From positions 196,001 through 260,000 of the forward strand of contig JACATO010001431.1 in assembly GCA_018389105.1 (NCBI GenBank): a stretch of DNA of 64,000 nt, given 5' to 3'. The notes under the pieces were generated by a model. It was not told the DNA's origin and ran no database searches. It saw only the letters and a program-made list of their open reading frames with translations. The stretch comes from Nautilus pompilius. Lineage: Eukaryota; Mollusca; Cephalopoda; Nautilida; Nautilidae. The position numbers and the translations under genes are program-made. Shown here one piece after another: positions 518-64,000 of the stretch. Numbering within the stretch: the stretch's first letter is position 1; each line of letters begins with the position of its first letter.

Positions 518-782
518 GTCGGTCTCTCTCTCTCTCTCTCTCTCTCCTTCTCCTCCTCCTCTCTCTCTCTCTCTCTGTACTGACGTCATCTCTCTCTCTC
601 ACGCTCCTCTCTCTGCTCCATCTCTCTCTCTCTCTGGTACTGACGTCATCTCTCTCGCTCTCGTCTCTCTCCTCTCTCTCTCTGTACTGACGGTCCATCT
701 CTTCGCTCTCTCCTCCTCATCTCTCCCTCCTCAACACCTCATTCTCCCGCTTCTCTCCCTCTCTCTCCTCTCTCTCTCTCAA
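518..782. repeat. CT-rich array with TGACGTCA units (array 1)
   Basis: A polypyrimidine tract of CT and CCT steps interrupted by three copies of the unit GTACTGACG(T)CAT. The perfect palindrome TGACGTCA occurs at 581-588 and 641-648. The third copy, near 687, is altered to TGACGGTCCA. Open frames here encode only Leu/Ser runs on one strand and Arg/Glu runs on the other, so they are not genes. Confidence 0.9.
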
Positions 783-1041
783 AGCAGACTTCATTCAGAC
801 ATAGATGAATGCGCACTCACCTGAAAACCCGTGCGATCTTTCCTCATTACATATTGCCCGCATCACACGATTATTACATTTTGAGGCTCAGATAAGTTTA
901 CCTTATACATACACATTTCTGGTGGCATCAGCTCATTTAGATACTGTTTTCGCTATTTACAGTTTCGTCGCATGATTCGACCCTAGCTCCCCCCCACCAC
1001 CCCGTGAGCCTGCACCGCTAATGTTTCTGTAACTAAGCTCG

Positions 1042-1097
<56 letters not shown>

Positions 1098-2026
1098 TTA
1101 AAAGACAAATATTCATAAACTTCACTTCCAGCCTCTAACAGGAGAGATTGTCACTGACATGACCGATCGAAGACGGAGCTTGTCAGCTCTGCCCAGGTGT
1201 GAAAGAGACTGGGCAGGGCGAGGATTAGGGGTCGAATCTCCCGCACTGCCGGTTATTCTTCGTGACTATGAAAAAGGTTAACAGAAACAGCTCCAGTCTG
1301 GTTATCCGACGATCGGCCGGAGACCAGCGACTGATAGTTGTGATAACGACACGTGTGTTTTTAAAGGTCTCAGGTCGCCGACCACCTTCGTTCCACCTGA
1401 ACGAACTGTCGAAGAGCGTAGACCAGGAAACGGGTTCAGCGAAGAAACGAGCGTGGGTCTGTCTCCAAGTGGAGAGGTGCTCGATTTCCCATCAAGCGTC
1501 GTTCACGGTCAGCGGTGCTTACCGAAACGTGACCAGCCGGTAAAAGGATCGCGGCGCCACGCCCACACAGGTAACTTCCGGCCCGGCTAAGGTTTGGTCT
1601 GCACAACGCTAGGAAGCCGACCATTTCACGCTTCAGTTCCCTACCGGACGATTTAAAACCGAGAAATACCTAATCGAAGAATTCGCGCTCGGACGTTCTT
1701 TAAGTCATCCCCCCCCAACCCCTAGAATTATTAGATACGAAGGATCCGCGGCTGATGTATTTACAGTATTCCACGCCCCTCTGAGGAGTAGAATAAGGTC
1801 AGAGGAATCGAGACCGACGCGGACATTTCCGAGAAGACGGGTGGAGGGAATCGATCTGTTGTCGCTTTAAAATTATGCGCTCCATTCCCCAGTTTCCAGC
1901 CGGCCCCAGCTAACAGACTGCGCCGGGCCGATGGCTTCATCTCTACTTCATCTCCAACGGCCGGCGTGGAAGACGAGAAATAGCCTTCTCTTGGTAAAGA
2001 ATGGAGACCGACCGACGACTCGCTTC
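783..2026. other. Single-copy non-coding stretch, partly CpG-rich
   Basis: Apart from the TTA microsatellite (listed separately), the part from about 1150 to 1640 is richer in G+C and CpG than its surroundings. It contains GGGGTCGAATCTCCC near 1228, which weakly resembles a tRNA B box but has no A box at the right distance. Open frames of 60-100 codons here match no family I know. Confidence 0.5.
1044..1095. repeat. (TTA)n microsatellite
   Basis: A pure TTA trinucleotide tract of about 17 copies. It is the reverse-complement motif of the TAA tract at the window start. Confidence 0.95.
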
Positions 2027-2029
2027 TCA

Positions 2030-2060
<31 letters not shown>

Positions 2061-2498
2061 CATCTCCCTCTCTCTCTCTCTCTTTCTCTTCTCTGCTCTC
2101 TATCTCTCTCTCTCTCTCTCTTCTCCATCTCTCTCTCTCTCTCGCTCTCTCTCTCTCTCCTCTCTCTCTCTCCTCTGCTCCTCTCCTCTCCTCTCTCTCG
2201 CTTTCCTTCTTCATCTCTCTCTCTCTCTCTCCCATCTCTCTCTCCATCTCTCTCTCTCTATCTCTCTCTCCTCTCTCCCATCTTCTCTCTCTCTCTCTTC
2301 ATCTCTCTCATCTCTCGCTCTCTCTCTTCTCTCTCTCCTCTCTTCCTCTCCTCCTCTCCGTCTCTCTCTCCTCTCTCTCTCTCCTCTCTCTCTCTCTCAT
2401 CTCTCCTCTCTCCTCTCTCTCTCTCCTCTCTCTTTCTCTTCATCTCTCTCCTCTCTCTCTCTCCCATCTCTCTCTCTCTCTCATCTTCATCTCTCTCT

Positions 2499-2534
<36 letters not shown>

Positions 2535-2535
2535 T

Positions 2536-2592
<57 letters not shown>

Positions 2593-2613
2593 CATCTCTC
2601 TCTCCTCTCTCTT

Positions 2614-2644
<31 letters not shown>

Positions 2645-2703
2645 CCATCTCTCTCTCTCTCTCTCTCCCTCTCTCTCTCTCTCCCATCTCTCTCTCTCTC
2701 CTC
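2027..2703. repeat. Long CT-rich microsatellite
   Basis: About 680 bases almost wholly pyrimidine on this strand. It is built from CT runs broken by CTC, CAT and TTC steps. Unlike array 1 it has no TGACGTCA unit. Long open frames through it (up to about 300 codons of Leu/Ser) are products of the dinucleotide repeat. Such a mirror-symmetric polypurine/polypyrimidine tract can adopt triplex structure. Confidence 0.95.
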
Positions 2704-5488: not shown

Positions 5489-5881
5489 TAGTACTCTCTC
5501 TCTCTCTGTACTGACGTCATATTTCTCTCTCTGTGCTGACGTCATGTTTCTCTCTCTCTGTACTGACGTCATATTTCTCTCTCTCCATCTCTCTTTCTCT
5601 CTCTCTCCATCTCTCTCTCTTTCTCTCTCTCTCTGTACTGACGTCATATTTCTCTATGCTGACGTCATATCTCTCTGTACTGACGTCACATCTCTCTGTA
5701 CTGACGCCATATTTCTCTATGCTGACGTCATATCTCTCTGCACTGACGTCACATCTCTCTCGGGTACTGACGTCATGTTTCTCTGTACTGACGTCACATC
5801 TCTCTGTACTGATGTCATGTTTCTCTATGCTGACGTCATATCTCTCTGTACTGACGTCACATCTCTGTCTGTACTGACGTC

Positions 5882-5911
<30 letters not shown>
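5489..5911. repeat. CT minisatellite with 15 TGACGTCA-type units (array 2)
   Basis: CT tracts alternate with 15 copies of the unit (G/A)T(A/G)CTGACGTCA(T/C). Thirteen keep the perfect palindrome TGACGTCA and two differ (TGACGCCA and TGATGTCA). In the right part, units carrying TGCTGACGTCAT alternate with units carrying TACTGACGTCAC, so order exists above the monomer. Spacing is mostly 20-22 bases from about 5635 onward and looser before it. Open frames through the array encode only Ser/Leu/Thr/Val repeats. Confidence 0.95.
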
Positions 5912-5913
<2 letters not shown>

Positions 5914-6716: not shown

Positions 6717-6838
6717 GGGGGCCCAAGCCATAGAAGTACGCCCAGCAGATTAGGCTCAGACTGGGACTCGAACCCACATCCGCAGCCTTGGCAGTCCACC
6801 GCTAGACACTGCGTCTGACCAATCGCTCTGTTTACCGA
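6717..6838 (-). mobile_element. tRNA-derived SINE candidate
   Basis: Read on the minus strand, this segment contains GGGTTCGAGTCCC (6766-6778), a near-perfect RNA polymerase III B box. About 35-40 bases earlier comes TAGCGGTGGACTGCC, which partly matches the A box and D-loop region of a tRNA. Downstream on the minus strand is a C-rich, then T-rich tail. The tRNA stems are not intact enough for a functional tRNA, so a tRNA-derived SINE or tRNA pseudogene is the better reading. The boundaries are estimates. Confidence 0.6.
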
Positions 6839-10903: not shown

Positions 10904-10955
<52 letters not shown>

Positions 10956-11150
10956 ATCTCTCCATCCTCTCTCTCTCTCTATCTCTCCATCTCTCTCTCT
11001 CCTCTCTCTCCTCTCTCTCTTCTCTCTCTCTCTTCTCTCTCTCTCTCTCTCTCTGTGCAAGATTTTTTCACTAAAGCTGCTCTACTCTCCTAGTGAATCT
11101 TCCTGTGTCACTAACTTTCCAGGTGAGATTCATCTCTAATACTGCGTTTC
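10176..11150. repeat. Highly diverged tandem repeat
   Basis: A phrase recurs in drifting form through this kilobase: a CAGGTGA/CAGGCTGGA/CAGCTTGGACA anchor, then a TAATACTACTATCC-like part, then a GTGAATCTTTCTCTAA-like part. Anchors lie near 10266, 10323, 10599, 10719, 10823 and 11121. The implied spacing is roughly 57 bases or multiples, with half-units near 28-30. Copies are too diverged to give a firm consensus by eye. A CT microsatellite sits inside it. Confidence 0.55.
10903..11055. repeat. CT-rich microsatellite
   Basis: CT runs with CTAT and CCAT interruptions and no TGACGTCA unit. It is embedded in the diverged tandem repeat, probably grown from a TCTCTAA-like part of that unit. Confidence 0.9.
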
Positions 11151-18316: not shown

Positions 18317-19316
18317 CTACTATAGAACGTCTGTCCGCCATCTCTGTAAAACGTCTGTACACCACCTCTGTAAAACGTCTGTCCGCCATTTCTGTAAAAC
18401 GTCTGTACACCATCTCTGTAAAACGTCTGTCCACCATCTATGTAAAACGTCTGTACACCATCTCTGTAAAATGTCTGTCCGCCACCTCTGTAAAACGTCT
18501 GTACACCATCTCTGTAAAACGTCTGACCGGACCTCTGTAAACGTCTGTACACCATCTCTGTAAAACGTCTGTACACCACCTCTGTAAAACGTCTGTCCGC
18601 CATCTCTGTAAAACGTCTGTACACCATCTCTGTAAAACGTCTGACCGGACCTCTGTAAAACGTCTGTACACCATCTCTGTAAAACGTCTGTACACCATCT
18701 CTGTAAAATGTCTGTCCGCCACCTCTGTAAAACGTCTGTACACCATCTCTGTAAAACGTCTGACCGGACCTCTGTAAAACGTCTGTACACCATCTCTGTA
18801 AAACGTCTGTACACCATCTCTGTAAAACGTCTGTACACCACCTCTGTAAAACGTCTGTCCGCCATCTCTGTAAAACGTCTGACCGGACCTTTGTAAAACG
18901 TCTGTACACCATCTCTGTAAAACGTCTGACCGGACCTCTGTAAAACGTCTGTACACCATCTCTGTAAAACGTCTGTACACCATCTCTGTAAAACGTCTGT
19001 CCACCATCTCTGTAAAACGTCTGACCGGACCTCTGTAAAACGTCTGTACACCATCTCTGTAAAACGTCTGACCGACCTCTGTAAAACGTCTGTACACCAT
19101 CTCTGTAAAATATCTGACCGGAAATCTGTAAAACGTCTGGCCGCCACCTCTGTAAAACGTCTGTACACCATCTCTGTAAAACGTCTGTCCGCCATCTCTG
19201 TAAAACGTCTGTACACCATCTCTGTAAAATATCTGACCGGAAATCTGTAAAACGTCTGGCCGCCACCTCTGTAAAACGTCTGTACACCATCTCTGTAAAA
19301 CGTCTGACCGGACCTT
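18317..19316. repeat. 24-bp minisatellite, about 42 units, three monomer types
   Basis: Each unit is TCTGTAAAACG followed by TCTG and a variable tail. The tails fall into three main classes: TCCGCCATC, TACACCATC and ACCGGACC. The last makes a 23-base unit. I count about 42 units. A five-unit block (TACACC, TACACC, TCCGCC, TACACC, ACCGG) recurs around 18540-18770. A different block using ATATCTGACCGGAAA and GGCCGCCACC recurs around 19110-19270. Because 24 is divisible by three, minus-strand frames of up to 388 codons stay open with an 8-residue repeat. The 23-base units shift between frames. No start context, promoter or domain supports a protein. Confidence 0.95.
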
Positions 19317-21039: not shown

Positions 21040-21063
21040 GAGAGAGAGAGGGGGAGAGAGAGA

Positions 21064-21144
<81 letters not shown>

Positions 21145-21179
21145 AGAAGAGAGAGAGAGAGAGAAGAGAGAGCGCCTTA
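21040..21179. repeat. GA microsatellite
   Basis: An almost pure GA run with a few GGG and GATG interruptions. About 65 bases later a CT/CGCT array begins on the same strand, giving opposite polarity. Confidence 0.95.
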
Positions 21180-21244
21180 GTGGCCTAGAGAGAGAGATAT
21201 GAGGAGATAGAGCTAGCTCTCGCTGGATATCGATCTCCTCCACT

Positions 21245-21545
21245 TTCGATTCGCTTTCTACGCTCGCTCCTCTCTCCTCAGAGCCTTCGCTCTACTCATA
21301 TTTCTCCGATCTCTCTCTACTCTCGACTCTCTGCTCTCGCTTCGCTTTTCGCTCTCTTCCTCGCTCTCGCGCTTTCGCTGCTCGCTCTCTCTCGCTCTCT
21401 CTGTCTTCTCTCTGATTCTTTCTCGCTCTCTCGCGCCGACTCGCCGCTCGCTCGCTCTCTCGCTCTCTCGCTGTCGCTCTCGGCTTCCTCTCTCGCTCTC
21501 GACTCGCTCCTCTCTCTCCGTCTCTCTCTCTCTCTCTCCCCTTCC
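21245..21545. repeat. CT/CGCT-rich array
   Basis: Pyrimidine-rich with many CGCT and TCGC steps, so it has many more CpG sites than other CT arrays in the window. It forms an imperfect inverted arrangement with the GA array to its left. The short link contains the palindrome GAGCTAGCTC near 21210. Minus-strand frames here are Arg/Glu/Ser artefacts. Confidence 0.85.

Positions 21546-28466: not shown

Positions 28467-28468
<2 letters not shown>
27346..28468. other. Unrecognised non-coding stretch
   Basis: AT-rich DNA. The missing 5' end of the transposon relic should lie here, but no matching GGCGAGACCCTG end with TA was found. Confidence 0.5.
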
Positions 28469-28520
<52 letters not shown>

Positions 28521-28851
28521 GTCAGTACAGAGAGAGATGAGGTCAGTACAGATAGAGAGAGATGACGTCAGTACAGAGAGAGATGACGTCAGTACAGAAA
28601 AAGATGAGGTCAGTACAGATAGAGAGAGAGATGACGTCAGTACAGAGAGAGATGACGTCACTACAGAGAAAGATGAGGTCAGTACAGATAGAGAGAGATG
28701 ACGTCAGTACATAGAGAGATATGACGTCACTACAGAGAAAGATGAGGTCAGTACAGATAGAGAGAGATGACGTCAGTACAGAGAGAGATGACGTCAGTAC
28801 AGAAAAAGATGAGGTCAGTACAGATATAGAGAGGGAGAGAGAGAGAGAGAG
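28469..28851. repeat. GA minisatellite alternating TGACGTCA and TGAGGTCA (array 3)
   Basis: This is the reverse orientation of arrays 1, 2 and 4. Units read TGACGTCAGTACAGAGAGA. I count nine TGACGTCA and five TGAGGTCA. The order is regular: after a first pair, the block TGACGTCA, TGACGTCA, TGAGGTCA recurs four times with a period near 66 bases. The unit carrying TGAGGTCA always ends in CAGATA rather than CAGAGA. The second TGACGTCA unit is marked by an AAAAAGA tail or by CACTACAG. The higher-order block has therefore been amplified as a whole. Confidence 0.95.
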
Positions 28852-29965
28852 CTCCTAAAGTCATCGTCTCTTCGTTGCTGCCCGTTTTCCATCAGCTTCC
28901 TTTGCATAATGACTTAAAGACGAAACCTGATTTTCTGTTGCAGGTAAGTTCGCCTATAAAGTAAAGAAAAAACAAAGGTGATGAGTAACGTAAAATTTTT
29001 TCTCTCTCTTGGTAATATAAACTAGCTGAAACTTTGTAAGAAGCTTTGTCGAATTCCTTTCCTAGGACACGAAATTTACCTACAAAGGTCTCGCCTTTCT
29101 CCGCGAATGAATTATTTCAATAATAAACCTGATTTTTACTGAATGTTTTGTTTTTACTTGTGCAGGTAAGACACCTATGGTGGAGCGTCAGTAATGCTGA
29201 CCGCTCTCGCTTGGTTCCAACTTAGTTAATATTAGCTGCTGGTGTCGAATTTAAGCCGAATGCAACACGAACTGCATAAGACAGCGATTTTGGTTGGCAC
29301 TTTAACAGTTAATTTTTATAGATATAACTTTTTTTTTTAAAGAAAGAAAGACAAACTGTTGAAAGGAACCCTGTATAGAATTCTGCTCGTTTCATTACTT
29401 CTGCTAAACACTTTTCAAAGACCATGCCAGGATCTCTTCCTTTTGTACGTTCGAATTGCCAAAGAAATGTTATGCCTTTCATCCCGTCCAAAGGCCATCT
29501 ATTTTCCTGTGAAGAAAAGTAACGAGGTACGAGACTGCGTCTCCGAGGCTCCAAAACTTTTACTGGGCGTCTACAGAGACATCGAGTCTACATTGGCTGG
29601 CATCTAAACGAGCCACGATTGGGTAATTCAGACGCTACTTGGACAAGTTGAAAGCTGCCAATTAATCGATCGCCTGTTATCTTTCCTACTCCCTTTGACT
29701 TGTCAGTTCTTTATGCTGAACAGCATCTCACACTGGGCTTTCATGAAAACCAAGTATCCCTTGAAACTTATCATATTAATTGAATTTTTTTAACGCTTTC
29801 TCTCGGCTTCACCGTTGTCTGGATGATAAGAAAACCCATAACCGTTTATATTTAGCAAAGAAGCAGGGAACTCCGCGACAAAGGCTACGGAGTCGGCGAA
29901 TTGTAGTCCTTTTTGGGCTTTCTGCAGTCTGCCATTCCATTGACTTGAGCGCAAATTCCGCCGTA
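28852..29965. other. Unrecognised non-coding stretch
   Basis: No exon is recognised. Two spots combine an acceptor-like and a donor-like consensus back to back (TTGCAGGTAAGT near 28940 and GTGCAGGTAAGA near 29161), each preceded by an AACCTGATTTT phrase. This looks like an old duplication. Confidence 0.5.
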
Positions 29966-31288
29966 AACAGCTCGGCGCTACGAATCATGCATACTGCGCC
30001 ATGCCGAAGACAGCCCGGCGCTACGAGTCATGCATACTGCGCCATGCCGAAGACAGCCCGGCGGTACGAGTCATGCATACTGCGCCATGCCGAAGACAGC
30101 CCGGCGCTACGAGTCATGCATACTGCGCCATGCCGAAGACAGCCCGGCGTTACGAGTCATGCATACTGCGCCATGCCGAAGACAGCCCGGCGCTACGAGT
30201 CATGCATACTGCGCCATTCCGAAGACAGCCCGGCGTTACGAGTCATGCATACTGCGCCATGCCGAAGACAGCCCGGCGCTACGAGTCATGCATACTGCGC
30301 CATGCCGAAGACAGCCCGGCGTTACGACTCATGCATACTGCGCCATGCCGAAGACAGCCCGGCGTTACGAGTCATGCATACTGCGCCATTCCGAAGACAG
30401 CCCGGCGCTACGAGTCATGCATACTGCGCCATGCCGAAGACAGCCCGGCGCTACGAGTCATGCATACTGCGCCATGCCGAGACAGCCCGGCGCTACGAGT
30501 CATGCATACTGCGCCATGCCGAAGACAGCCCAGCGTTACGAGTCATGCATACTGCGCCATGCCGAAGACAGCCCGGCGCTACGAGTCATGCATACTGCGC
30601 CATGCCGAAGACAGCCCGGCGCTACGAGTCATGCATACTGCGCGCCATGCCGAAGACAGCCCAGCGTTACGAGTCATGCATACTGCGCCATGCCGAAGAC
30701 AGCCCGGCGCTACGAGTCATGCACACTGCGCCATTCCGAAGACAGCCCGGCGCTACGAGTCATGCATACTGCGCCATGCCGAAGACAGCCCGGTGTTACG
30801 AGTCATGCATACTGCGCCATGCCGAAGATAGCCCGGCGCTACGAGTCATGCATACTGCGCCATGCCGAAGACAGCCGGCGGTACGAGTCATGCATACTGC
30901 GCCATGCCGAAGACAGCCGGCGGTACGAGTCATGCATACTGCGCCATTCCGAAGACAGCCCGGCGTTACGAGTCTTGCATACTGCGCCATGCCGAAGACA
31001 GCCCGGCGCTACGAATCATGCATACTGCGCCATGCCGAAGACAGCCCGGCGCTACGAGTCATGCATACTGCGCCATTCCGAAGACAGCTCGGCGTTACGT
31101 GTCATGCATACTGCGCCATGCCGAAGACAGCTCGGCGTTACGTGTCATGCATACTGCGCCATGCCGAAGACAGCCCGGCGGTACGAGTCATGCATACTGC
31201 GCCATGCCGAAGACAGCCCGGCGGTACGAGTCATGCATACTGCGCCATGCCGAAGACAGCCGGCGTTACGAGTCATACATACTGCGCC
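29966..31288. repeat. 43-bp minisatellite, about 31 units, open in all plus-strand frames
   Basis: The unit runs CTACGAGTCATGCATACTGC, then GCCATGCCGAAGACAGCCCG, then GCG. Copies are highly similar: most changes are CTACG/TTACG/GTACG, ATGCC/ATTCC and single-base indels near 30480, 30640, 30875, 30918 and 31259. The unit has about five CpG sites and the inverted pair GGCGC/GCGCC. Because 43 leaves remainder one on division by three and no frame has a stop, every frame reads the same 43-residue His/Cys/Arg-rich repeat over 129 bases. The longest frame, 29780-31498 (572 codons), also extends through about 65 non-repeat codons on each side. No domain, signal peptide or promoter supports expression, so it is listed as a repeat rather than a gene. 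Confidence 0.95.
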
Positions 31289-37200: not shown

Positions 37201-38601
37201 TTTTATAGAGAGTGCATTAACCTACACACATCATCTATAATTGCTTTCATATATTTACAAACAAAGCGAGTTTATCGCAATCTTTTTCAATAAATTTTTA
37301 AAAAAGTATAGCATCTGTCTAATGTGAGTATGAGGTGCTTTAATTCTGCAAATTCAAAACGGAATTGTTTTTCTAGCAAGTGCTCTAAGTATTTTATCTT
37401 CAATCTTGTTATAAAGTGCTCCAACATTGAAATTACAATTCAGTATGGTAACTAATTACGGAATTCTAAAGCGTTTGCTTCTCATTATTAATTTTAAACA
37501 CTTATTTATGTATGTATATATTTTGTATATTATTCCCTATGGGGGTGTGTCGCGCCTAACCACACTACCTACTTCAGCAGGGAAATTTTTACTACAACTA
37601 TTTATTTTTATATGTGGGAAGAAACGGTAGTACTCGGAAAAAAGCTCCGCGGCCGGCTAGGGAAGGAGGTGCCGCGCCTAATATACACTATAAAACATGA
37701 TTTCGCTCACAGATTTATCTTAAAAAAAGAAATTTTATTGTCAGTTTAGCCCTTTAATTTCGTTTTGAAAATTTTAAAATTAAATAAACCCGAAGCTCCG
37801 AACAGTGACGATGGAAAGCGATAAAATTATAAAACATGAAACTTTGAATAAATGTATTTGACTTTGCCATTTCCGTTGTTGCTAATTTACAACCCTGAGA
37901 AAAATGTTTTTTTTGAAATTACAACAAAATTGAAATAGAAATTTATTAAATACAGAGATGGTTTTCTTCTTTAAAAAAAAAAAAAATTCGGAATGTAAAA
38001 TTTGAGCAGAACAACTTCCTGAATACAAAGGAGACAGGTTTCTGATTTTTTAAACCCCTGTCTGATTGTTTGTACATTACATTATGACGTCCAAAATGCA
38101 TAGGTTTTTCAGGAATCTCTTCAGATTATGGAATTCGATGGCTTTTTGATATATTCGCTTTGCAAATATCATCGGCCCTGGTTCCACTCTGTCGCATCCA
38201 CAATGAGGAAATTGCTATCAGAACATTCGCAAGACATCAAAATTAGATAAAATTGAATGCTTCGTAATGGTTTACGAATGCAATTATGCAAGGTATGACA
38301 ATGTAAATCCAGTCACAAATGAAGTTTTGTTAATTCAGTAAAAAAAATAAGGGTTAATATTAGACTGTCGAACTCACGCGTTCGCGGAAAAATGTAAATA
38401 GGTCTGAAATGTTTTTCTGGTCGGTCTCAAATAACACGTGACTTAGATAAAGGAAGTCCAGTTTGGTTCTAACGCAGATGAAAACTTTCTTCATATTTTA
38501 CATCTTTAATACGAGATTGTTTGTTGTTGTTTTTTTTAAAAAAAGAGAGAGAAAAGGTTACATTTCCGATAGCAAGATAGGAAATAGTGGAACGCACACT
38601 C
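31289..38601. other. Unrecognised non-coding stretch
   Basis: About 7.3 kb with no defended exon. Noted items: a G-quadruplex motif (separate entry), a short TA run at 32985-33004 and CpG-richer DNA at about 33.6-33.9 kb. The last includes CCGCCGCCGCCATTTTATG (near 33783), which contains the reverse complement of a YY1-type AAATGGCGGC site. That is compatible with a promoter but not proof of one. Frames of 60-125 codons here match nothing I know. Confidence 0.45.
31971..31991 (+). other. Strong G-quadruplex motif
   Basis: GGGAGGGGTGGGTGGGGGGG plus one more G gives four G-runs separated by single-base loops. That is the arrangement that forms very stable parallel quadruplexes. No nearby gene is recognised. 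Confidence 0.8.
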
Positions 38602-38818
38602 TGTTCCATCTGCGAAGACCAATCGGTTCTGCTCCATCTGCGAAGACCAATCGGCTCTGATCCATCTGCGAAGACCAATCGGCTCTGATCCATCTGCGAA
38701 GACCAATCGGCTCTGATCCATCTGCGAAGACCAATCGACTCTGATCCATCTGCGAAGACCAATCGGCTCTGATCCATCTGCGAAGACCAATCGGCTCTGC
38801 TCCATCTGCGAAACCTAG
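38602..38818. repeat. 28-bp minisatellite, about 7.5 units
   Basis: The unit is CCATCTGCGAAGACCAATCG followed by GCTCTGAT. It starts at 38606 and repeats every 28 bases up to 38802, where the last copy is cut short. Units are almost identical (GCTCTGAT, GTTCTGCT, ACTCTGAT), so the array is young. As 28 leaves remainder one on division by three, all three minus-strand frames are open and read the same 28-residue repeat. This is not evidence of a protein. Confidence 0.95.
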
Positions 38819-41800
38819 ATCGCGTCACTTTCACGGATGGTAGACCATGCAGCTTATGACGACAGTACTGTGGATAAATGGCATTAACAAAGCCACGATG
38901 TAATAAAAGGACTAAATATTCTCAGGATTTTTGCTTAACGACGGACATCTATAAAAGGGAAACCTGCTTCAGGAACAAAATGCTGACTTCCGGGAAAAAT
39001 TACCTTGACAATATATATATATAGGTTAGCTCACACTGAGTGCCAGTCATTGAGAGAGACACTGTTCAGATAATTACTTGTGTAGATGGCATCAGTTTGA
39101 TCTTATACTTAATGCTTAAAACCGGTTTCTTTTGAAGGCAACGGCTCTTTTTATTTACGCAAGTTTGGATAAGATGCAGATTCTTTCGTGCAGCTTTCTT
39201 ATTTGATAGGCGACAATGAGCACACATAAACTTGCTAAGAAGTAGACGATGTTGCTGTTTCCGTTGATGGAAAAGCACGCATCAGGGAAATGATGCGACG
39301 GGAAGTTTCCGTTTATATAAACAACCGGGCGAAGAAAGGGCAAAAGATTTAATCAAAGGTTTGTACAAAAGAAAAAAAAAATCTAATCCTTTCATTAAGG
39401 CCGCAATAGAAAGTGGGTAGCAATTAAAGTAACCTTAGGTAAATTAAGCATCATTGGAGTATTTTATGAAGTCTATCGCAGCGATGTAATTTTCTTTTGT
39501 AACCAAATAATTTACGCATTTTAATAATTATATTAACGGTATAAATAATTTCTAAAATATTAGCCGCATATTAAAGATATATATTTTTAAATTTGGAATT
39601 TCTGATTATCGATTTACTTATTTACGAATTATCTTATATTCTCTAATGCAGAAAGAAAATTACAACTTTGAAACTTATTTGTATTATTCTTTTCCTTGAG
39701 AAGGAAAGACATAGCTGTCAAAAGTCAGCGTATGGTGGACAGATAGGAGGAGAGACGATCAGCTGAACCGTTTCCGCCATAAATCTCTGCTAGATAGGTT
39801 GAATTACCGTTTATACTTATCCCTAATTTCTAACGACTAGCTTCATTAATTAAAAATGCACCATCTTGACGTCATTCTCGATATCTTTTTAACACTAAGG
39901 TGGGTCCATCTTCATTATAAATTTTCGTATGAGGCCTTAAATATACGGCGAGTCTCCAATTACCAAATCTTTCTTGCTTTGTGTTATCGTAGCCAGTGGC
40001 GGGGGACTAAAAATATTTGGCGTTCGTTTTTGCAGGCACTTACCCGCTAAAACGCTTCCAGTCCTTTTACCTGATGTCTTAATCCGATCCTCGGATTATC
40101 GATTTCTTTATGGCAGTCACAGCCACGCTACCTAAGCTCTGCTTAGTCATAAGCAGGCTAAACCTGTTAGGAAAAAAGTAATAACCTTAATATATAAATT
40201 AGTTGTTTACTGGTTTATCGGATATTTTAAAAAAAAAAATATAACGTCTACAAAGAAAATTAATTTAATAAAAAGGTGTGGATGATTTACTGATCCTTTT
40301 TTTCCTTACACAGCTTCATTTTATTCCAAAATGATTGATTTCAAGCGTGAAAGGTTCGATTGCGTTTATGAGAGCAACTACATTGAAAACCGGGTACCGT
40401 GAGCCATGAGCAAAGTTTCACTTGGCAACGATCTCACCACTGTGGGCGTTCTTCTCCCTTGTTCTCCTGCTCGCATTGTATAAGCGCAAACGGCCCCCGA
40501 TTGCTTGCAGACCCCTTTTATGTAAAGCGAACTGCCGAGTACAGGCTGGAAGTGCTGGGTCCGAGCTGCACAATAGCGCCTCGGCGGATCACGTGTAGAG
40601 ATCGGGCGCCGTTGAAAGTCGCATGGGAAAATCCAGGGGTTTTACGTGGTGAGGCGTAACCCCCCCAGATTCTTCCTTTTCGGATAAGAACGCCCGGTAC
40701 TGGCTATGAATTACAGGCACGCCGGCACAAGTTAACCTTGCGCGACAGTGCACGAGCGTAAGCAATGTTTTGAAAGAGTGTGAAAAGTTTGCGACTGAAC
40801 ATTGGCCACGACCATTACGAACCAGATGGGTGGCGAGAGGGGCTTCGACGCGGGGCTACTGGTCAGTGGGCAGGAGAAGTCTCGCAGGTACTCTGGTAAA
40901 AGAAGGTAGACTTGTGGAGAAAATATATAGTGCACGCATCGCTTGTGTGATGGCCTCCGACGAAAACGGATTTTCCTATTCTCTTCAAGAGGATGAAGTC
41001 TAAGACATTCGTCTTACGTCATCACAAAATACGGAGTGTAAGAAACGGTTAATGTAGATTTGCTGAAACTAAAGTTTACTTGTAATTAATGTCCTGTTGT
41101 TCTGAAATGCAAAAATGAACGCTGTATACTATTAAAATTTATAACATGTAAAATTCTGTAAGGTAAGCGACACTGATACAAGTCTTCGGAATCTCGGTGG
41201 CATAGTTTCCTAGCCAACAGGGCAGAATTTTTCCGCTGGCGATGACGTAATATAATTAATTCACGTCTCGGAGCATTTGCCTGCTTGGTGCCAACATGTG
41301 GTAATGGGATCCTCCTTAACACGGGTCGTTAGTACAGTGGCTGGTGTTGCTAAAATATGATTATGGAAAATTATATATTATATGATAAAATCTGTCAATG
41401 CATTAAAGTGTGTTAACAACACGGGAAACTATTTCGACAATTATAAACAATAGTCTGCGCCTGTTCATGAATATTTTGCTAACGATTTTGCAATTTTACA
41501 TTTCTTTCCACTTTGTGCAAATTTTCTTGCTATATCCATACGTTAGAAAAGCTGAAAGAAACATGGCTAAACCCTATCCAGGCAATTATATTTTCTGTAT
41601 AATTCTGTTTACCATTCCTTTTACTAGTTGTTTTTTAAAGCAATTTATGAGTTGAAGAATTATTTATGACGAAATTCCAAATTTAAATGCATGCAAAAGT
41701 AAACAATTCACTAGGCAGCATAATGCTTTTCTCAGTATTTTTGAAGGATTTTTTGTCCACTTGCTTTCCTAACTTACTAATTTCAATGTTTATTCAAATA

Positions 41801-45324: not shown

Positions 45325-45328
<4 letters not shown>

Positions 45329-45386
<58 letters not shown>
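45329..45386. repeat. GA microsatellite
   Basis: A pure GA run of about 29 copies with no TGACGTCA unit inside. Solitary TGACGTCA sites occur nearby at 45566-45573 and 45770-45777. Confidence 0.95.
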
Positions 45387-49560: not shown

Positions 49561-49848
49561 AATCCAAGTTGCTTGAAGTACAGTGTGAAGTTTCCATAGT
49601 CAGTGATGATTTGGGGCGCCATGTCATCTGCTGGTGTTGGTCCACTGTGTTTTATCAAGTACAAAGTCAATGCAGCCATCTACCAGGAGATTTTAGAGCA
49701 CTTCATGCTTCCATCTGCTGACAAGCTTTATGGAGATGACTTCCTTTTCCAGCAGGACTTGGCACCTGCCCACAGTGCCAAAACTACTGGTAACTGGTTT
49801 GCTGACCTTGGTATTACTGTGCTTGATTGGCCAGCCACTCATCTTAAC
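49561..49848 (+). pseudogene. Tc1-like transposase fragment
   Basis: One frame reads NPSCLKYSVKFP, an in-frame TAG at 49597-49599, then SVMIWGAMSSAGVGPLCFIK and, after a short gap, AAIYQEILEHFMLPSA. It continues FLFQQDLAPAHSAKTT and ends WFADLGITVLDWPA. This is the central part of a Tc1-family DDE transposase; the second catalytic Asp lies in FQQDLAPAHSA. The N-terminal DNA-binding domain is missing. After LDWPA the expected SPDLNPIENLW block, which carries the third catalytic residue, is absent and unrelated sequence follows, open to 49938. It is a dead fragment truncated at both ends, with no terminal repeats seen. Its coding sequence is well preserved, so the insertion is fairly recent compared with the relic at 26.8 kb. 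Confidence 0.9.
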
Positions 49849-51559
49849 AACACAAATAGCTTTTCTGACTTTAAACCTAACCTATCTGATGGAAAGTGGA
49901 TGGTTATTCTGGGAATTTTCCACCACCTTATTAATTAGTCCACTAGTTTGTTAAATTACTACTACTAAGACATTGGAAAATACTAAAATCAACCCTTTAC
50001 TTTCCATAAACCACACATCACCATTATCTCATCTTATCTGGTGGCAGTTAAAGCCAAGGTATGTGTTATTTATTGCATGTACCACTGCTGAAAACATTTA
50101 TGGTTATCTCCACTAAATAAAGTTGTTACAAGGTTAATACTCAATGGTGTACAAAATGTTAGTTAGTGCCATTAACAAAGTGATGGGGAGGATGCCAAAA
50201 CTAACTTCATATTTGTGCCTCAACCTATACACCATTTTAATACTTTTGGTGATGAAACCTTCAAGAATTTAAACTGACTTTGACAAGTCTTTTTTTTGTT
50301 CATCTACTTTCATACTCTTTGCAGGAGGTTCGGTTAAATATCACGAAAATTCGGCACGTGAAGTCACTGCGCTCGCCAAAAATATTAGGTGGTAATCAAA
50401 TAAATAAAATTCTCAAAAAAATCAATTTAGTTGTGATTTTCACATATTTCTAGTCAGGTGGAGTGTTGTCTGTTTTCATAACACTCGCTAGTAAGGGACC
50501 GGCGTGTGAAGATATTTTAAAAAATAAACGGGCGGGGCACTGGATACCCTGTTCCATTGCAGAAAACCAAACCCTGACTGAGAATGCGTGAAAATAAAAA
50601 AAATTTAAGTGAGGAGCCCTGGAAACTCTGCTCCCAAGCCCAAAACCTCAGCCCCAACAATGAACATAACTGATTCTTGTAATGTAAAAGACAATAAAAG
50701 CATGTCACTGTCCTGAGTTATTATGAATTTCTGATTGCTCATTAGGAAATGAGCAGCATTTCCTAGCTTTATAACCATTGATTATGCTCAGTGTTTGTTT
50801 TCTTTCAGTAATTTGTTCTACAATTAGTCTATGAAGAAACTGTACATTTTACTATTCTGTGCCTATAGAAAAGTTATACCTGAGCGCACCTGTAAAGTCT
50901 GCACCCGATAAATAAAAAAAAAATTTTCTATTATTTATAATGTATATAAATTATATAATAATGTATATGTGTATTTATATTAATATTAAATATTACAATA
51001 CCACATACCACATTCGCTATCGTAAAGTTTTGTCAAATTAGAAGCAACATTATCGATTAACGCCAGATGTGAATTATTTTAGCCGGAAAAAAAGATTGTT
51101 TAAGGTAGAAGTTTGAAAATGCCTAATATATAAACAATAATAAATTAATTGCAATAAAATCGTTCCACAAAGTTTTTAAAATGACGTACATATTACGAGA
51201 TGCAGATTTGAGAGATGGCCGACCACTGTCGTTATTTCACTTTTAAATTTAAAATTTTAAATTTTATGCATTTTAAATTGTATAAATGCAAATACCTTTT
51301 TATTTTTTTTTCCTATTTTTAAAAAAAATTTTCAATAAAAGAACAGCATAAAACTCTGGTTATCGCATTAGATTATCACAAAATTTTTAATATATTGTAA
51401 TACTGTAAACCAGATAAGTTATGTAACGATTAAAGTCTACATATAGTTTATTCCTCAAGAATAAGTTTCCTCTATATACATCAATGGCACTGCCCAGACT
51501 ACCCCATGATAAATGCAGCGAATATCAAAATACTAATGAATAGTAAATATCTTGACGTA
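49849..51559. other. Unrecognised non-coding stretch
   Basis: The left part, to about 50.3 kb, has fewer CpG and a different texture from its surroundings. It contains AATAAA near 50117, so it may belong to the inserted material that brought the Tc1 fragment. The remainder is AT-rich with nothing recognised. Confidence 0.45.
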
Positions 51560-51689: not shown

Positions 51690-53690
51690 ATCTACGTGTA
51701 CTTATAGTGTCGATCGAGGCTTTATATGTACGTAAACGTTTGGTGTCGATTGAGGCATTAAATATACCTAAACGTATGATTTCACTTGAGGCTTTATAGT
51801 ATTTACGTAAACTAATTGTGTCGGTTGAGGATTTATATCTGCGTAAATTTATGATGTAGATTCAGGCTTTGAAACTAACGTAAAATTATGATGTCAATTG
51901 AGTCTTTATATTTAAGTATATTTATGATGTCAATTGAGGCTTTATATCTACGTAAACGTATGAAATTGAGAGAAAAGTTACATCGACGTAAACTTACGGC
52001 GTCGATACAGACTTTATAACTACGTGTACTTATGTTGTAGATTCACGATTCATATCTATGCACACGTATGACGTCGAATGAAGCTTTATATGTACGTAAA
52101 CGTTTGGTGTCGATTGAGGCATTAAATATACCTAAACGTATGATTTCACTTGAGGCTTTATAGTATTTACGTAAACTAATTGTGTCAATTGAGGATTTAT
52201 ATCTGCGTAAATTTATGATGTAGATTCAGGCTTTGAAACTAACGTAAAATTATGATGTCAATTGAGTCTTTATATTTAAGTATATTTATGATGTCAATTG
52301 AGGCTTTATATCTACGTAAACGTATGAAATTGAGAGAAAAGTTACATCGACGTAAACTTACGGCGTCGATACAGACTTTATAACTACGTGTACTTATGTT
52401 GTAGATTCACGATTCATATCTATGCACACGTATGACGTCGAATGAAGCTTTATATCTACGTAAATTTATCGTGTTGATAGAAGGTTTACATAGACGTAAA
52501 CTTACGGTATCGTTTTATATTTTCAATCTACGTAAACGTATGATGTCGATTATCGCTTTATATCTATGTAAACTAATTTTGAAGTTTTAGGCTTTATATC
52601 TACGAAAACCTATGGTGTCATTTGAGGATTTATATCTACGTAACTCATGATGTAGATTCAGGCTTGATATTCACGTAAACTTATCGTGTCGATTAAGGCT
52701 TTATATGTACGTAAACGTATGGGGTTGATGGAGGCTTTATATCTACGTAAACAACAGTGTCTATTGAGTGTATATATCTACGAAAATTTATGGTGTCCAT
52801 TGATGCATTATATCTACGTAAACGTATGATGTCGATTAACGATTTATATCTACGTAACTTGATGTAGTTTCAGGCATTATATGTAGGAAAAATTATGAGG
52901 TCGATTGAGGCTTTATATTTACGTAATCTTATGAGTTCGAACGTATGATGTCGATTGTGGTTTTATATCTAAGTAAACTGATGGTGACTGTTGAGATTTT
53001 ATATCTAGGTAGGCATATGATTTCGATTTACGCTTTATATCTAGGTTATCAAAAGATTTTGATTGACGTATTATATCTACGAAAACGTATGGTGTCAATT
53101 GAGGATTTATATCCACGTAAACTTATCGTGTCGATTAAGGCTTTATATGTACGTAAACGTATGGGGTTGATTGAGGCTTTATGTCTTTGTAGACATATGG
53201 TTTTTATAGGTCTAAATCGACGTAAACTTAACTTTCTATCCACGTAAACTTATCATGTTGATTAACGCTTTATATCTATGTAAACTAATGTTGTAGTTTA
53301 AGGCTTTATATCTAGGTAAACTAATGAAGACGATTGAGGCTTTCTATCTACATAATCTAATGGCGTCGAATGATGCATTATATGTACATAAACTTATGAT
53401 ATCGATTAAGGATTTATATTTACGTATGTTATGATGTAATTTCAGGTTTTATATCTAAATAAATTAAGATGTCGATTGAGAATATATATTTACGTAAATT
53501 TATGATTTTGATTGAGTCTTTATATCTATGTAAACATATGATGATTGACGCTTTATGTGTATGTTATCAAAAGATTTTGATTGACGCATTATATCTGTGG
53601 AAAAGTATGGTGTCAACTGAGGATTTATATTTACTTAAGTTTACGGTCTCGATTATACCATCCTACGTCAACTTGTCTTATATGTTAAAT
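51690..53690. repeat. Satellite-like array of about 36-bp units
   Basis: About 55 diverged copies of a unit that reads TTTATATCTACGTAAACGTA and then TGATGTCGATTGAGGC. Units vary in length by a few bases and in sequence by 10-30% judged by eye. The core TACGTA and the GTCGATTGAGG part are best kept. Frames of 60-100 codons here (for example 52945-53247 on plus and 52919-53116 on minus) show a 12-residue repeat only because 36 is divisible by three. They are not genes. The array carries a long internal duplication, listed separately. Confidence 0.95.
51721..52458. repeat. 364-bp higher-order duplication within the 36-bp array
   Basis: The segment 51721 to about 52094 recurs from 52085 to about 52458 with almost no change. 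The only difference I saw is GTGTCGGTTGAGG against GTGTCAATTGAGG. The offset of 364 bases equals about ten monomers. Neighbouring monomers differ far more from one another than these two blocks do. Confidence 0.9.
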
Positions 53691-57430: not shown

Positions 57431-57434
57431 ATAC

Positions 57435-57467
<33 letters not shown>

Positions 57468-57572: not shown

Positions 57573-57630
57573 TTTCTCTCGAATCCACCGACAGTCACAA
57601 CTTGGAATGTATATATAGAGCATCGCTATC

Positions 57631-57791
57631 TCAGTTCTGCTGTAACAGAAGTTGTTCCAGCTCATCCGCAGAACGATAAAGGAAGGCGGCAGACTCTCTA
57701 TAGCCCGCTATCAGCTGTTTGATGGTAGCAACTTCGTTAGCACTCAACTGATTTTTGGAATTCTGCTTTTTCATGCTCAAGTCTGTTGGAC
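57631..57791 (-). CDS. NOL4: NOL4/NOL4L-family protein, last coding exon
   Basis: On the minus strand the exon starts with the last two bases of a split codon, so the intron is phase 1. It encodes 52 residues and ends in TGA at 57633-57631. It opens PTDLSMKKQ, has a short Asn/Ser/Lys linker, and then [20 protein letters not shown] and [10 protein letters not shown] before the stop. From memory, vertebrate NOL4 and NOL4L end in the same way: a GPTDLSMK motif, a variable linker, then a conserved [25 protein letters not shown] tail. PTDLS fits the PxDLS consensus bound by the corepressor CtBP. The tail looks like one amphipathic helix. Its biochemical role is not established to my knowledge; the family is nuclear. 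All other exons must lie beyond 64000. I cannot tell whether this is the single invertebrate family member or one of several, so the symbol denotes the family. Confidence 0.9.
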
Positions 57792-57815
57792 CTGCAAGAA
57801 AAATGAAGAAGGAAG
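57792..57815 (-). promoter_or_regulatory. 3' splice acceptor of the last NOL4-like exon
   Basis: Read on the minus strand, the bases before the exon are CTTCCTTCTTCATTTTTCTTGCAG: a good pyrimidine tract ending in a consensus CAG. It fixes the exon boundary after the C at 57792. The GPTDLS reading in other animals fits a Gly codon split across this intron. Confidence 0.85.
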
Positions 57816-58188
57816 TTTTTTTTTTTAAAAGAAGGAGAAAAAAAAAAACGCCTGAGTGCCAAACGACGTTCAGCATCTGCTGCGTTCGGGCGAAGCTCCT
57901 TCGACAAATAAAGTTTTTTCCTTTTCTGTCAATGGTTGCAGAATACACCATTAAACAAGCTCCAAACGTTTTTCCTGTGTTTCGAAAGATATTCAAGCTG
58001 GAGAAGTAAGTAACGTTCGTAGTGCGAGCAAAAAGGATACGTTAATAACAGGTAGACAGATTTTGCTCCAGGCGTGGTATATTGTTGTTTAGATTATAAT
58101 CGACCTCCTAACGTTAGATCCATAACCACCGTGGCTAGCACCATCTTCAGCTCAACTAACATGCACGTCTCTCTATGGAAGCATCCGT

Positions 58189-58244
58189 CTGCACTGTCCA
58201 ATAATCTCCACAGTAGACGGAAGCTTGAACAGACCAAGATGGCA
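58189..58244. repeat. 56-bp exact dispersed duplication, copy 1
   Basis: The sequence starting CTGCACTGTCCAATAATCTC and ending ACAGACCAAGATGGCA is identical to 59803-59858 in the same orientation. Flanks on both sides are unrelated. Confidence 0.95.
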
Positions 58245-59802: not shown

Positions 59803-59858
59803 CTGCACTGTCCAATAATCTCCACAGTAGACGGAAGCTTGAACAGACCAAGATGGCA
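59803..59858. repeat. 56-bp exact dispersed duplication, copy 2
   Basis: Identical over 56 bases to 58189-58244, 1614 bases apart and in direct orientation. Both lie in the NOL4-like intron. Confidence 0.95.
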
Positions 59859-60681
59859 CACTTGGCTACAGTTACAAATGCGCTGGAAAGATTTAGAGGA
59901 AGAGGGATGATCTGGTCCACCAGCTGTACCGTTTCTTTTTCCCATTCAGTGATGATGAACTAAGAACGTCAATTCCAGCACAAGAGTCCAATTCGAAGCG
60001 AGCGCTCTTGATGTTTCGATTAGAGCGGTCCTGTCATCATCAGGGAAGAGGGAAAGTTGGAATGTGAAAACAAGGCGGGATGCCTGCATTTTGACATCAC
60101 CGGAGAACATTAGAAAAAGCTTGTAATATATATATATATATATTTAAATGACGCAATACCTGTTTCTGTAAAAGACAATTTAACCCAATTTTCTGCAGAC
60201 AATGCTCGTGGCATTAACAATACTGAACTTTGTGAGAGGAACAGTTATTACGAGGTGGAATGGGTGATCGGATACAGCGCCGGACTTGTGGTACCTGGGT
60301 CCATGGAGTTTTTGTTGGGGCTTCTGGAAAGAGCTGGTTCATTTGCGGAAGGTTTTTATGTCCCAAATGAACATCTTCCGAGATAGGTAGCCTAATCTTC
60401 TAGTTTTCGCCTGAGTCACTTCTCTCCCCCCCAAACGTTGGCCTGAAACTAAGCAGAACGCGGTTAGTAATATGACTGTTTGTGTTAATTTTATATAAGA
60501 TATAGTAGCCACGTGATAGGCAATCACTCAAAGACTTTTATTTGACAGTTCCATAATTCACTGCATATCTGTACGTTTCGTAGCAGTCAGATGAGCTAGC
60601 GCCATGACTTTAATTGCTGACGGATATTCATAGGGAAAAAATTCTGCTGGCTATTTTAACACGAGCCAAACATAGTTAATA

Positions 60682-60764
60682 CTAAGGGCGTTCAAATGAA
60701 ACCAGGCCGGATACCATTACGGCGAGGATACTGTGGGCCGGGTTTTATTTGAACGAAGTCTCCA
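60682..60764. mobile_element. MITE candidate (copy 2)
   Basis: The left arm CGTTCAAATGAAACCAGGCC and the right arm GGGTTTTATTTGAACG form an imperfect inverted repeat of about 16 paired bases around a short centre. TA lies just outside at 60680-60681 and 60765-60766. The left half matches copy 1 near 51.56 kb. Non-autonomous and mariner-like by its TA site and size. Confidence 0.55.
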
Positions 60765-60899
60765 GTACTCTTTCTAGATCGAGAAGAATTCGCTGCATGT
60801 CTGTGAGGATAACGCGAACACCGGACCTTCCAGCTGCGCCAATTCTTGTTTTCATTTTTATCGATTATCCTGGAAACTCTCCTGGTAGTTTTTTTCCCC

Positions 60900-61300
60900 C
60901 TTCTTCTCCAGATATCCACAATTCAGTTATAATGCAAGTTTCCACTCGCGTTCTGCGTTCTCGGGAGGAACGTCCGCTTCCCCCCCTGCTGGGGATCTTC
61001 CTTCTTTGATGGAAGAGGAAACGGGAGGAAAAGCAGCGCAGGGGAACCGGTTGGTCAACGGAACGGGAAGACGGCTCGCAGGCGGGATGGGATGTACGCC
61101 GCCAAACCGACCCAGTTCCGACGGTAGTTCGCCGGTGCGCCGACCAGAAATCCCAGCCGGTCAACGACAGTAAGAGGCGCGGTGGAAAGCGTTCCGGAAC
61201 ACGAGAAGTTGCGGTCCCGTTTTTGCCGACATGCCCGAACTCGGTGCACTGCCGGAAGCCAACCTTCCCCACGTTCTACACGCGACCGTCTTCTAACCCC
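60900..61300. other. CpG-rich, GC-rich segment within the intron
   Basis: This stretch is markedly richer in G+C and CpG than the rest of the intron. It has frames open on both strands (for example 60865-61272 on minus) but none resembles a known protein. It could be a regulatory island, an internal promoter or an insertion of foreign composition. Confidence 0.45.
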
Positions 61301-61937
61301 ATCAATGAAAGCGGATTCCTTTTCCGGGTAGAAAAATGGCGCAGACCGCTTCGGTCCCTTTCATTAACACGCGCACCCCCACTCCATCAATGTCAAGCAT
61401 GCGTTCTACAGAGGATAGAATTCGCAGCATCTTTGTAACTCTAGGCCTGGACTGAAATGATACAGCTTTAAAAGATGCGGCGACAGTTTTCTGTAATAGA
61501 GTGCCAGAACCTATTGACGGCGGGACTCGTGAACTACGCAAAGACGGCGGACTCCGTCTGTTTGTTAGGACAAAATAGTTACCACTAAATCCATCTATTA
61601 ACAACATAATTTATTCCGCGGAAAGGAGGCAGGCAGCACCAGGCATTTTCACAGCTACACAGAAGACGTTAAAGAACAGGGAGCGCTCATTAACTCAAAT
61701 TCAATATCGTCCAAGTTTCTTCTTTTGCCCTGACCAAACGCGTGTACCAAGATGGCAAGTAGTAAATCCATGTTAGTATCGATAATGACCTCCTATGCAG
61801 GAGAATATTTCATTAATCTGAAACCTCCTTGGTTAGCTTGGAGTGGAAAGAATAGGTTTTTCTTTTCTGGTTCGGGAGCGTGGCAAGTTAGTCACCGTGT
61901 AAACTGTATACCTCATTAGCATTCACTCGCTCGATGA

Positions 61938-62062
61938 GATGCTCTCTCGCTCTCTCCATCTCTCTCTCTCTCTGTACTGACGTCATCTCTCTCTCTCTCT
62001 CTCCATCTCTCTCTCTCTATCTCTCTCTCTCTATCTCTCCATCCTCTCTCTCTCTATCTCTC

Positions 62063-62093
<31 letters not shown>

Positions 62094-62121
62094 GCTCTCT
62101 CTCTCTCTCCTCTCTCTCTCT

Positions 62122-62167
<46 letters not shown>
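61938..62167. repeat. CT array with one TGACGTCA unit (array 4)
   Basis: CT runs with CTAT and CCAT steps. One copy of GTACTGACGTCATCTCTC is present, with TGACGTCA at 61978-61985. The unit is the same, in the same orientation, as arrays 1 and 2. Confidence 0.95.
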
Positions 62168-62169
<2 letters not shown>

Positions 62170-63675
62170 GTCTTGCGCTTCTTTGTAATGTGTATTTGCT
62201 TTCCCAAATATTTAAACCGTAGAGAGTTTGGAGCCAAACAATGCCTGGATAATTCATTATGCGAAAATAATCAACACGAAGTGCTGTCTGTATCTACGAA
62301 CCTTTCATTCTATGACTCCTGACTTTTCTTATCTTATCAAACGTGTGTGTGTGTGTGTGTTTTTTTCCTTTTAAAATTAAATATTCAAAGAACGCATTTA
62401 TCGTTTTCGCCACAATTTAAAAAAAAAAAACAAACTTTTATTATTAATTCCATTCAAGGCGATCACGAGAAAGGTCTATTTATAAACAGTTCTGTTATAT
62501 CTGTGTGTCTTCCTACAAAAACGAAACTAACAGCCAGCTCCCTTTGTTGCTCACTGCTGAGGCTGACACATCAGCTCCTTTGCATTGCAAGTATTAATTA
62601 TTATTCACTTCAGATGAACCCTTTTCGTCGTATGAATTTAACACTACAAAAACGCAAGGAAATATACATGTAACATTAGTATCTGGGTAATAATAGATGC
62701 AAATCCAATGCAGTTCAACCGATCGCATGTACGTAGGAATACTATAGTAACATTTCCGGGTACCCCTGAGACCAAGAGGTTTTTTCTTTTGTGTTCTGTC
62801 ATGGCAGTTCCCCTGTCAAGCCATTCGGTTTCCATATTAGCGAGGCTCCTTGTAGTGCTGTCTGGTAAGATTGGCGACTTGTCACTCCAAGCCTCCCTCC
62901 TACAGAAGGCAAGAAATCAATGCATTGTCTCTGTCCGCGGGGTGTCGTGTAAGGAAGAGACGGAGAGAGGGGCAATAGAGAGATGAAGACAGACTCCCAC
63001 CGCGAGCGTGTGTTCGCTCGCTCGCTCATTATGTAGCCCATACGTGACTCATTTGGAATCAGAAAGGGACTTGTCCTAATCTTGCGAGATTATAATTTAC
63101 AAGGACCCCTTGCAAGAAACTTTTAATCTAATTTGAAAAAAAAGAAAAAAAAAACTATTTTCAAATTTGGTAACAGCTCGATGAATTGGATCGATTCTAT
63201 TCAGATTTTAGCGTATTCCCTTCTGTGCGACATATAAAAGCCGCATCCAGGGATTCTGGCCGCCCCACCCCTGTACTGATGTTAACTGCAGTGTACAATG
63301 CGGTACATCCGCTACTCTACCGTGTAGCCTCTCCCCTGGCTTTTCCGAATACTCTTTCTTTCCGATCTAGCTTTCACAGGCTATGGTCATATTTTGTACA
63401 TTAAAAAATTAACAAAATAAAGTTTTTTCTTAGGCGTATCTGAGAAAGGAAAAAAGAACACAAATAACCACGTTATCTAATGGCTCTCTGCCGTGGTAAG
63501 CTGAGACCGAGGAGAGTTTCCAGACGGCAGGCTTGTCTAACGTCTTGTGACGTCAGTAAAATCGACCTTTCAGAATCTTTAACAAATGACTGCGTTTTGT
63601 CGTGAGCGATCATGTAAATTCCATGTTTTAAATAATTGATCTTCCTTATCAGTTAGTTTTGGCGATGGTTGCTTT

Positions 63676-63678
<3 letters not shown>
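62168..63678 (-). other. Intron of the NOL4-like gene (right part)
   Basis: No exon is recognised on the minus strand. It contains a GT run at 62344-62360 and a solitary TGACGTCAGTA at 63548-63558, 130 bases before the GA array that carries the same phrase. Confidence 0.5.
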
Positions 63679-63732
<54 letters not shown>

Positions 63733-64000
63733 AATATGACGTCAGTACAGAGAGAGATGACGTCAGTACAGAGAGAGAGAGAGATGGAGAGAGAGAGAAA
63801 TATGACGTCAGTACAGAGAGAGAGACGTCAGTACAGAGAGAGATGACGTCAGTACAGAGAGAGAGAGAGAGATGGAGAGAGAGAGAAATATGACGTCAGT
63901 ACAGAGAGAGATGACGTCAGTACAGAGAGAGAGAGAGAGATGGAGAGAGAGAGAAATAGACATCAGTACAGAGAGAGATGACGTCAGTACAGAGAGAGAG
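63679..64000. repeat. GA minisatellite with TGACGTCA units (array 5), runs off the window
   Basis: A pure GA run is followed by units reading TGACGTCAGTACAGAGAGA. I count seven perfect TGACGTCA and two altered copies (GAGACGTCA near 63824 and AGACATCA near 63958). An AAATATGACGTC unit recurs at about 63733, 63800 and 63887, marking a longer block of roughly 67-87 bases that includes GATGGAGAGA. The array continues past the window end. Confidence 0.95.

Follow-up and report, generated by a model that had tools for sequence, protein, structure and literature searches.

A 13-bp repeat unit with a CRE core in the CT tracts of the Nautilus pompilius genome

Dispersed tandem repeats are already known as a kind, and the nearest parallel to the case described here is the Rsp-like satellite of Drosophila, which was inserted into existing 1.688 arrays at euchromatic sites of the X chromosome (PMC7919458). 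Many scattered short arrays, present in both orientations and lacking target-site duplications, are also formed by the central repeats of the Helentron-type elements of Crassostrea gigas known as HINEs (PMC7492417), and in Lepidoptera RTE-made microsatellite families have a non-random sequence common to the microsatellite loci (PMC2887409). In this work a 64-kb stretch of the genome of the cephalopod Nautilus pompilius (C1360:196001-260000, hereafter the window) was analysed, in which a 13-bp unit, GTACTGACGTCAT, containing the cAMP response element (CRE) core TGACGTCA, recurs within arrays of the microsatellite (CT)n. The family resembles the Rsp-like one in being newly placed inside the arrays of another tandem repeat, and differs from it in that the Drosophila host is an X-linked complex satellite (PMC7919458), whereas here the host is (CT)n, the unit comprises 13 bp and about 6,600 arrays are estimated. 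The HINE arrays are described with characteristic flanking sequences (PMC7492417), while none were found here; similarly, the shared part flanks the microsatellite in the lepidopteran families (PMC2887409), whereas in Nautilus it lies inside, the flanks being unrelated. A text search of open-licence papers for the letters of the unit found no paper.

Direction and genome-wide distribution of the unit

The window contains 37 copies of TGACGTCA, 32 of them inside five CT arrays and five solitary, in agreement with the numbers and positions given in the preliminary description of this DNA (Table 1); the chance expectation for 64 kb is 0.83 copies by mononucleotide and 0.78 by dinucleotide composition. 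All the 22 exact copies of GTACTGACGTCAT, eight on the plus strand and 14 on the minus strand, fall within the arrays. Upon comparison of the window with itself, likeness between arrays was restricted to the array interiors, and five further CT/GA tracts, including the longest CT tract of the window, proved to be free of TGACGTCA.

The whole-genome search that had been proposed was run as complete pattern counts over 727.6 Mb in 2,558 contigs, and it placed the arrays genome-wide; confinement to the window by one segmental duplication was looked for and not found. Exact GTACTGACGTCAT occurred 27,590 times (70 for the reversed-pattern control), GTACTGACGTCAT with at most one mismatch 72,391 times (1,493 for the control) and GTACTGACGTCATCTC 14,835 times (0 for the control), while a further control, a 20-base word from the window's 24-bp minisatellite, yielded 18 exact matches, every one at its own locus. 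The 100 listed places of GTACTGACGTCAT, all on contig C1, form 24 clusters with a mean of 4.17 exact copies each; dividing the genome count by this mean gives the above estimate of about 6,600 arrays, which has a one-contig basis and misses the arrays without an exact unit. Related tandem units are present at many unlinked loci.

The association of the unit with CT was assessed in a blind sample of 19 stretches (188 kb) with positions fixed beforehand, which together with the window amounts to 252 kb and contains 26 CT segments with a minimum length of 60 bp (three of them being parts of a single array). In these segments TGACGTCA was found in 49 copies, distributed over 11 of the 26 segments and over six of the 17 that lie outside the window. 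Other 8-mers equally frequent in CT arrays were looked for in the 252 kb and not found: among the 8-mers with at least three purines, only TGACGTCA and those words of the unit that overlap it occurred in more than three of the 26 segments, and the words present in three segments were, among the top 25 listed, mostly variants of the unit.

The preliminary description held that the unit occurs in both orientations, which holds in respect of the contigs, where the exact units are balanced genome-wide (13,759 vs 13,831); along the CT strand the unit has a single direction. In the CT segments of the 252 kb, GTACTGACGTCA was found 33 times along the CT strand and 0 times along the GA strand, and in the whole genome 14,763 exact units are bordered by five pyrimidines on both sides and none by five purines, with one free base allowed after the unit in the flank pattern. 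This classing by direction covered the units with such regular borders, the flanks of the other 12,827 exact units being less regular.

Array interiors and the spread of the unit

The interiors were compared in 35 arrays, comprising the five of the window, ten from other loci and 20 picked for an exact 16-mer; this set is not random, given the choice of the last 20 and the location of many of the arrays on contigs C1 and C2. With up to four mismatches allowed, the 35 arrays contain 458 units, of which 194 are exact; TGACGTCA is intact in 287 units and GTAC in 329. Odd spacings account for 368 of the 423 cases and form a ladder of 17, 19, 21, 23, 25 bp and so on, the commonest value being 21 bp (90/423), as is expected if CT steps change the length of the linker. 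Higher-order repeats, their periods and the variants are private to each array, and identical variant tokens were met in 232 of 2,613 within-array pairs vs 51 of 55,698 between-array pairs, i.e., the units are homogenised within arrays. Two arrays situated 51 kb apart on contig C2 (L036 and L038) have 69 identical bp in common, including two rare cassettes, the flanks of the two being unrelated, and a plainer repeat is common to L003 and L040 (66 bp) and to L003 and L043 (64 bp), which belong to different contigs. The sharing of rare tokens averaged 0.089 in the 45 pairs of arrays less than 100 kb apart vs 0.012 in the 504 pairs whose members belong to different contigs, with P 0.038 by permutation.

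That one unit spread among separate CT tracts, as was initially proposed, is borne out at the genome scale by one 13-mer, one direction, unrelated flanks and some 6,600 arrays, while conversion and reinsertion, both named as possible routes, are not separable on these grounds. The arrays represent a dispersed minisatellite family, the unit of which lies in (CT)n and is oriented with it. On balance we lean, with modest confidence, towards the interpretation that this unit was copied between arrays via CT homology and was then expanded locally. According to this interpretation, the unit would have arisen once, and the unit, or a block of units with CT linkers, would have passed as a copy into further arrays whenever a break or stalled fork in one CT tract was repaired or restarted on another tract via CT homology, presumably by ectopic conversion or template switching as the candidate routes. 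Slippage of CT and unequal exchange could then have yielded the private higher-order repeat of each locus. In such a spread the CRE core most likely had no part of its own.

Alternatively, whole arrays may have been excised as extrachromosomal circles, amplified by the rolling-circle mechanism and reinserted at breaks together with their CT, in which case the target need not have been CT. We consider this doubtful, although it accounts equally for the unrelated flanks, the single CT direction and the higher-order repeats, and the 69-bp block of L036 and L038 could be a reinserted fragment. It agrees less with the fact that no pair of the 35 arrays has more than two rare tokens in common, and pre-existing hosts are at hand, since 15 of the 26 CT segments are unit-free. 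The abundance of unit-free CT tracts and the small number of long shared blocks lead us to favour copying between CT tracts over the reinsertion of arrays.

Several observations weigh against copying between CT tracts as the route of spread. That the units entered CT tracts already in place is what we infer; most of these facts would be explained as well if whole arrays had moved, and the two routes differ mainly in the appearance of the empty site. The blocks common to L003 and L040 and to L003 and L043 could have arisen twice by local expansion, rare cassettes being found in L036 and L038 only, and the above test of regional sharing is weak, considering its P value and the non-random choice of the 35 arrays. 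Additionally, the single-mismatch unit of the window that is not in CT (Table 1) stands just after a 28-bp minisatellite (38599-38812), and a polarity with the pure CT tail always on the 3' side, which the first arrays suggested, was rejected, as the 3' tail is longer in just 19 of the 35 arrays.

The CRE core and its solitary copies

The core TGACGTCA has the sequence of a CREB/ATF response element, its function as such being putative. When changes were counted at the array level, the four bases preceding the core gave 26 (G1), 9 (T2), 14 (A3) and 17 (C4), the core itself gave 7 (T5), 7 (G6), 9 (A7), 16 (C8), 17 (G9), 11 (T10), 11 (C11) and 12 (A12), and the last base of the unit gave 16 (T13). 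Thus, the non-CpG positions of the core, with 7-12 changes vs 9-26 in GTAC and 16 at T13, are below most linker positions, and the CpG is the most changed part of the core, C>T and G>A being found in 14 arrays each as the commonest transitions of the unit. In matched CT context, 11,877 intact copies were counted genome-wide along with 1,104 copies of the CpG variant G9>A and 763 copies of the non-CpG variant G6>A. Such a pattern of mutations appears to be unlike strict preservation of a CREB site and compatible with weak constraint, the evidence being mixed. The 100 places listed for G6>A include 21 from C7, 48 from C117, with which the list ends, and none from C1 or C2; this is a lead only, and the use of the variant as a possible marker depends on the number of arrays per contig.

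Solitary copies of TGACGTCA are also enriched, with 13 found in the 252 kb vs 2.2-2.8 expected. None of the 13 has GTAC beside it, and the base preceding the core is G in seven and A in four of them, where the unit has C; for these two reasons the solitary copies do not look family-like. Judging from this sequence context, they may form a class separate from the array family and are plausibly ordinary response elements.

Selection might have kept the core in the form of CREB/ATF sites, so that the arrays would act as enhancers or decoys and their benefit would have driven the spread. The proportion of units with an intact core and the lower variability of its non-CpG positions are consistent with this, and the enrichment of solitary copies points to the possible use of CREs by the organism. 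The CpG, however, matters for CREB binding, and it is the CpG that bears the commonest transitions of the unit; moreover, the spacing tracks CT steps and not the helical phase, although 21 bp is its commonest value. Considering both sides, we regard selection as an improbable cause of the spread.

It might also be that the spread is driven by the unit itself: in the germ line a bZIP factor would bind the core and open the CT chromatin, breaks would form adjacent to it, and repair between arrays and unit-free CT tracts would leave more units. The analogy is with the M26/CRE-like hotspot of fission yeast, where ATGACGT can attract breaks via a bZIP factor (PMC9775316); ATGACGT is also part of the unit in its GA-strand form, ATGACGTCAGTAC. 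M26 is a single site, dependent on Atf1-Pcr1, with breaks nearby, and a canonical CRE located in ade6 remains unbound (PMC9775316), whereas here there is a sequence match alone. We hold self-driven spread to be improbable, too; if true, it would make the unit a selfish transposase-free repeat, mobile via a host transcription-factor site and microsatellite homology. Should the sites be bound, CREB/ATF factors could be titrated or redirected by these additional CRE-type sites, which number in the tens of thousands.

Search for a carrier, and neighbouring features

Carriage of short arrays by mobile elements, such as the oyster Helentron-type HINEs or the RTE microsatellite tails of moths, is a known route to their dispersal (PMC7492417, PMC2887409). 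In the 67 flanks (40 kb) of the 35 arrays, no adjacent sequence common to the arrays was detected at E<=1e-3; the two flank matches at this threshold were overlapping window DNA in one case and, in the other, a pair between L009 and L022 located ~725-890 bp from the arrays. At E<=0.1, seven further matches of 15-26 bp were obtained for the first 15 arrays, none of which links two array edges. No signal of target-site duplication was present in the 32 arrays for which the two flanks could be compared (the mean shared word was 4.28 vs 4.33 after shuffling), a single pair of the 32 flank pairs having eight bases in common, and no 6-8-mer at the edges of the 35 arrays rose above the level found 200 bp away (6/35 vs 5/32 for the best 6-mer). 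Accordingly, neither the target-site duplication and fixed polarity of the pure tail that characterise microsatellites formed as retrotransposon tails nor, in the 35 arrays, the conserved flanking element ends of Helentron HINEs or other transposon-borne arrays were found. Transposition by a mobile element, also suggested at first, is not supported in these arrays by the flanks, the target-site duplications or the edge k-mers; the 35 arrays are unlikely to have had a carrier element, and we see only a slim chance that one was at work in the family. Dispersed short arrays are often credited to transposons, and here several thousand of them, by estimate, exist with no carrier detectable in 35, so that homology-guided movement between microsatellites becomes directly testable with sister genomes. 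An assembly or library artefact is very improbable, for although low-complexity sequence is prone to errors and sequencing adapters can contain CT runs, each of the 35 arrays differs from the others in its variants, its periods and its unique flanks, and two adapter-like words are absent from them and from the window.

One array at another locus, L030 (G000:C1 ~287 kb), begins directly after the splice-donor-like sequence CAGGTGAGT and may sit at the start of an intron.

Table 1. Arrays, other repeats and open reading frames of the window, with the solitary cores of the sampled DNA
Feature	Position	Strand	Remark
CT array	518..782	+	2 exact GTACTGACGTCAT units and 1 broken unit (GTACTGACGGTCC)
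CT array	5489..5913	+	15 units; 21-bp spacing in 9/14; linker variants GTGC/ATGC/GCAC
CT array	28467..28851	-	read on -; 14 units; higher-order repeat of ~69/136 bp; GTACTGACCTCAT variant five times
CT array	61938..62169	+	one exact unit only
CT array	63677..64000	-	read on -; 9 units; continues past window end
Single-mismatch unit (GTACTGTCGTCAT)	38856..38868	-	outside any CT tract
Solitary TGACGTCA	4961, 39867, 45566, 45770, 63548		also in L011, L015, L018, L019, L025
Longest CT tract of the window	2025..2700	+	no TGACGTCA; internal control
Further CT/GA tracts	10907-11054, 21040-21197, 21270-21538, 45328-45386		no TGACGTCA
24-bp minisatellite (AACGTCTGTACACCATCTCTGTAA)	18326..19310	+	119-bp higher-order period; weak likeness to the CRE unit; 20-base word at own locus only
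43-bp minisatellite	29960-31288		31 copies, 95% matches, GC-rich
36-bp degenerate repeat	51690-53638		AT-rich
364-bp tandem duplication	51719-52464		near-identical; within the 36-bp repeat
Identical 56-bp repeat	58189-58244 and 59803-59858		1.6 kb apart
Open reading frame	49600-49935	+
Open reading frame	57634-58041	-

The 24-bp minisatellite was compared with the CRE unit in four ways, with P values of 0.001, 0.006, 0.013 and 0.317, and three other minisatellites gave, in 12 comparisons, one value of 0.033 (the 43-mer) and others above 0.1; the kinship of the 24-bp minisatellite with the unit is unproven, as this minisatellite is confined to one locus. The 43-bp minisatellite contains long open frames in all three plus-strand frames, since its period is not divisible by 3 and stops are almost absent from the repeats.

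The search of ten chosen open reading frames of the window against Pfam gave no family above the cut-off, the search against Rfam gave no match, ARAGORN found no tRNA, and no match to phage records and viral contigs was obtained. Of the two open reading frames listed in Table 1, for which Pfam returned no family, the one at 49600-49935 resembles a fragment of a Tc1-type transposase, and the one at 57634-58041 has an end similar to a conserved final exon, perhaps that of a NOL4-type gene. Elsewhere in the genome, 117 fragmentary matches to COX1, many of them with TAA/TAG stops, are spread over many contigs (e.g., G000:C112:262789-263529) and are perhaps nuclear copies of mitochondrial DNA.

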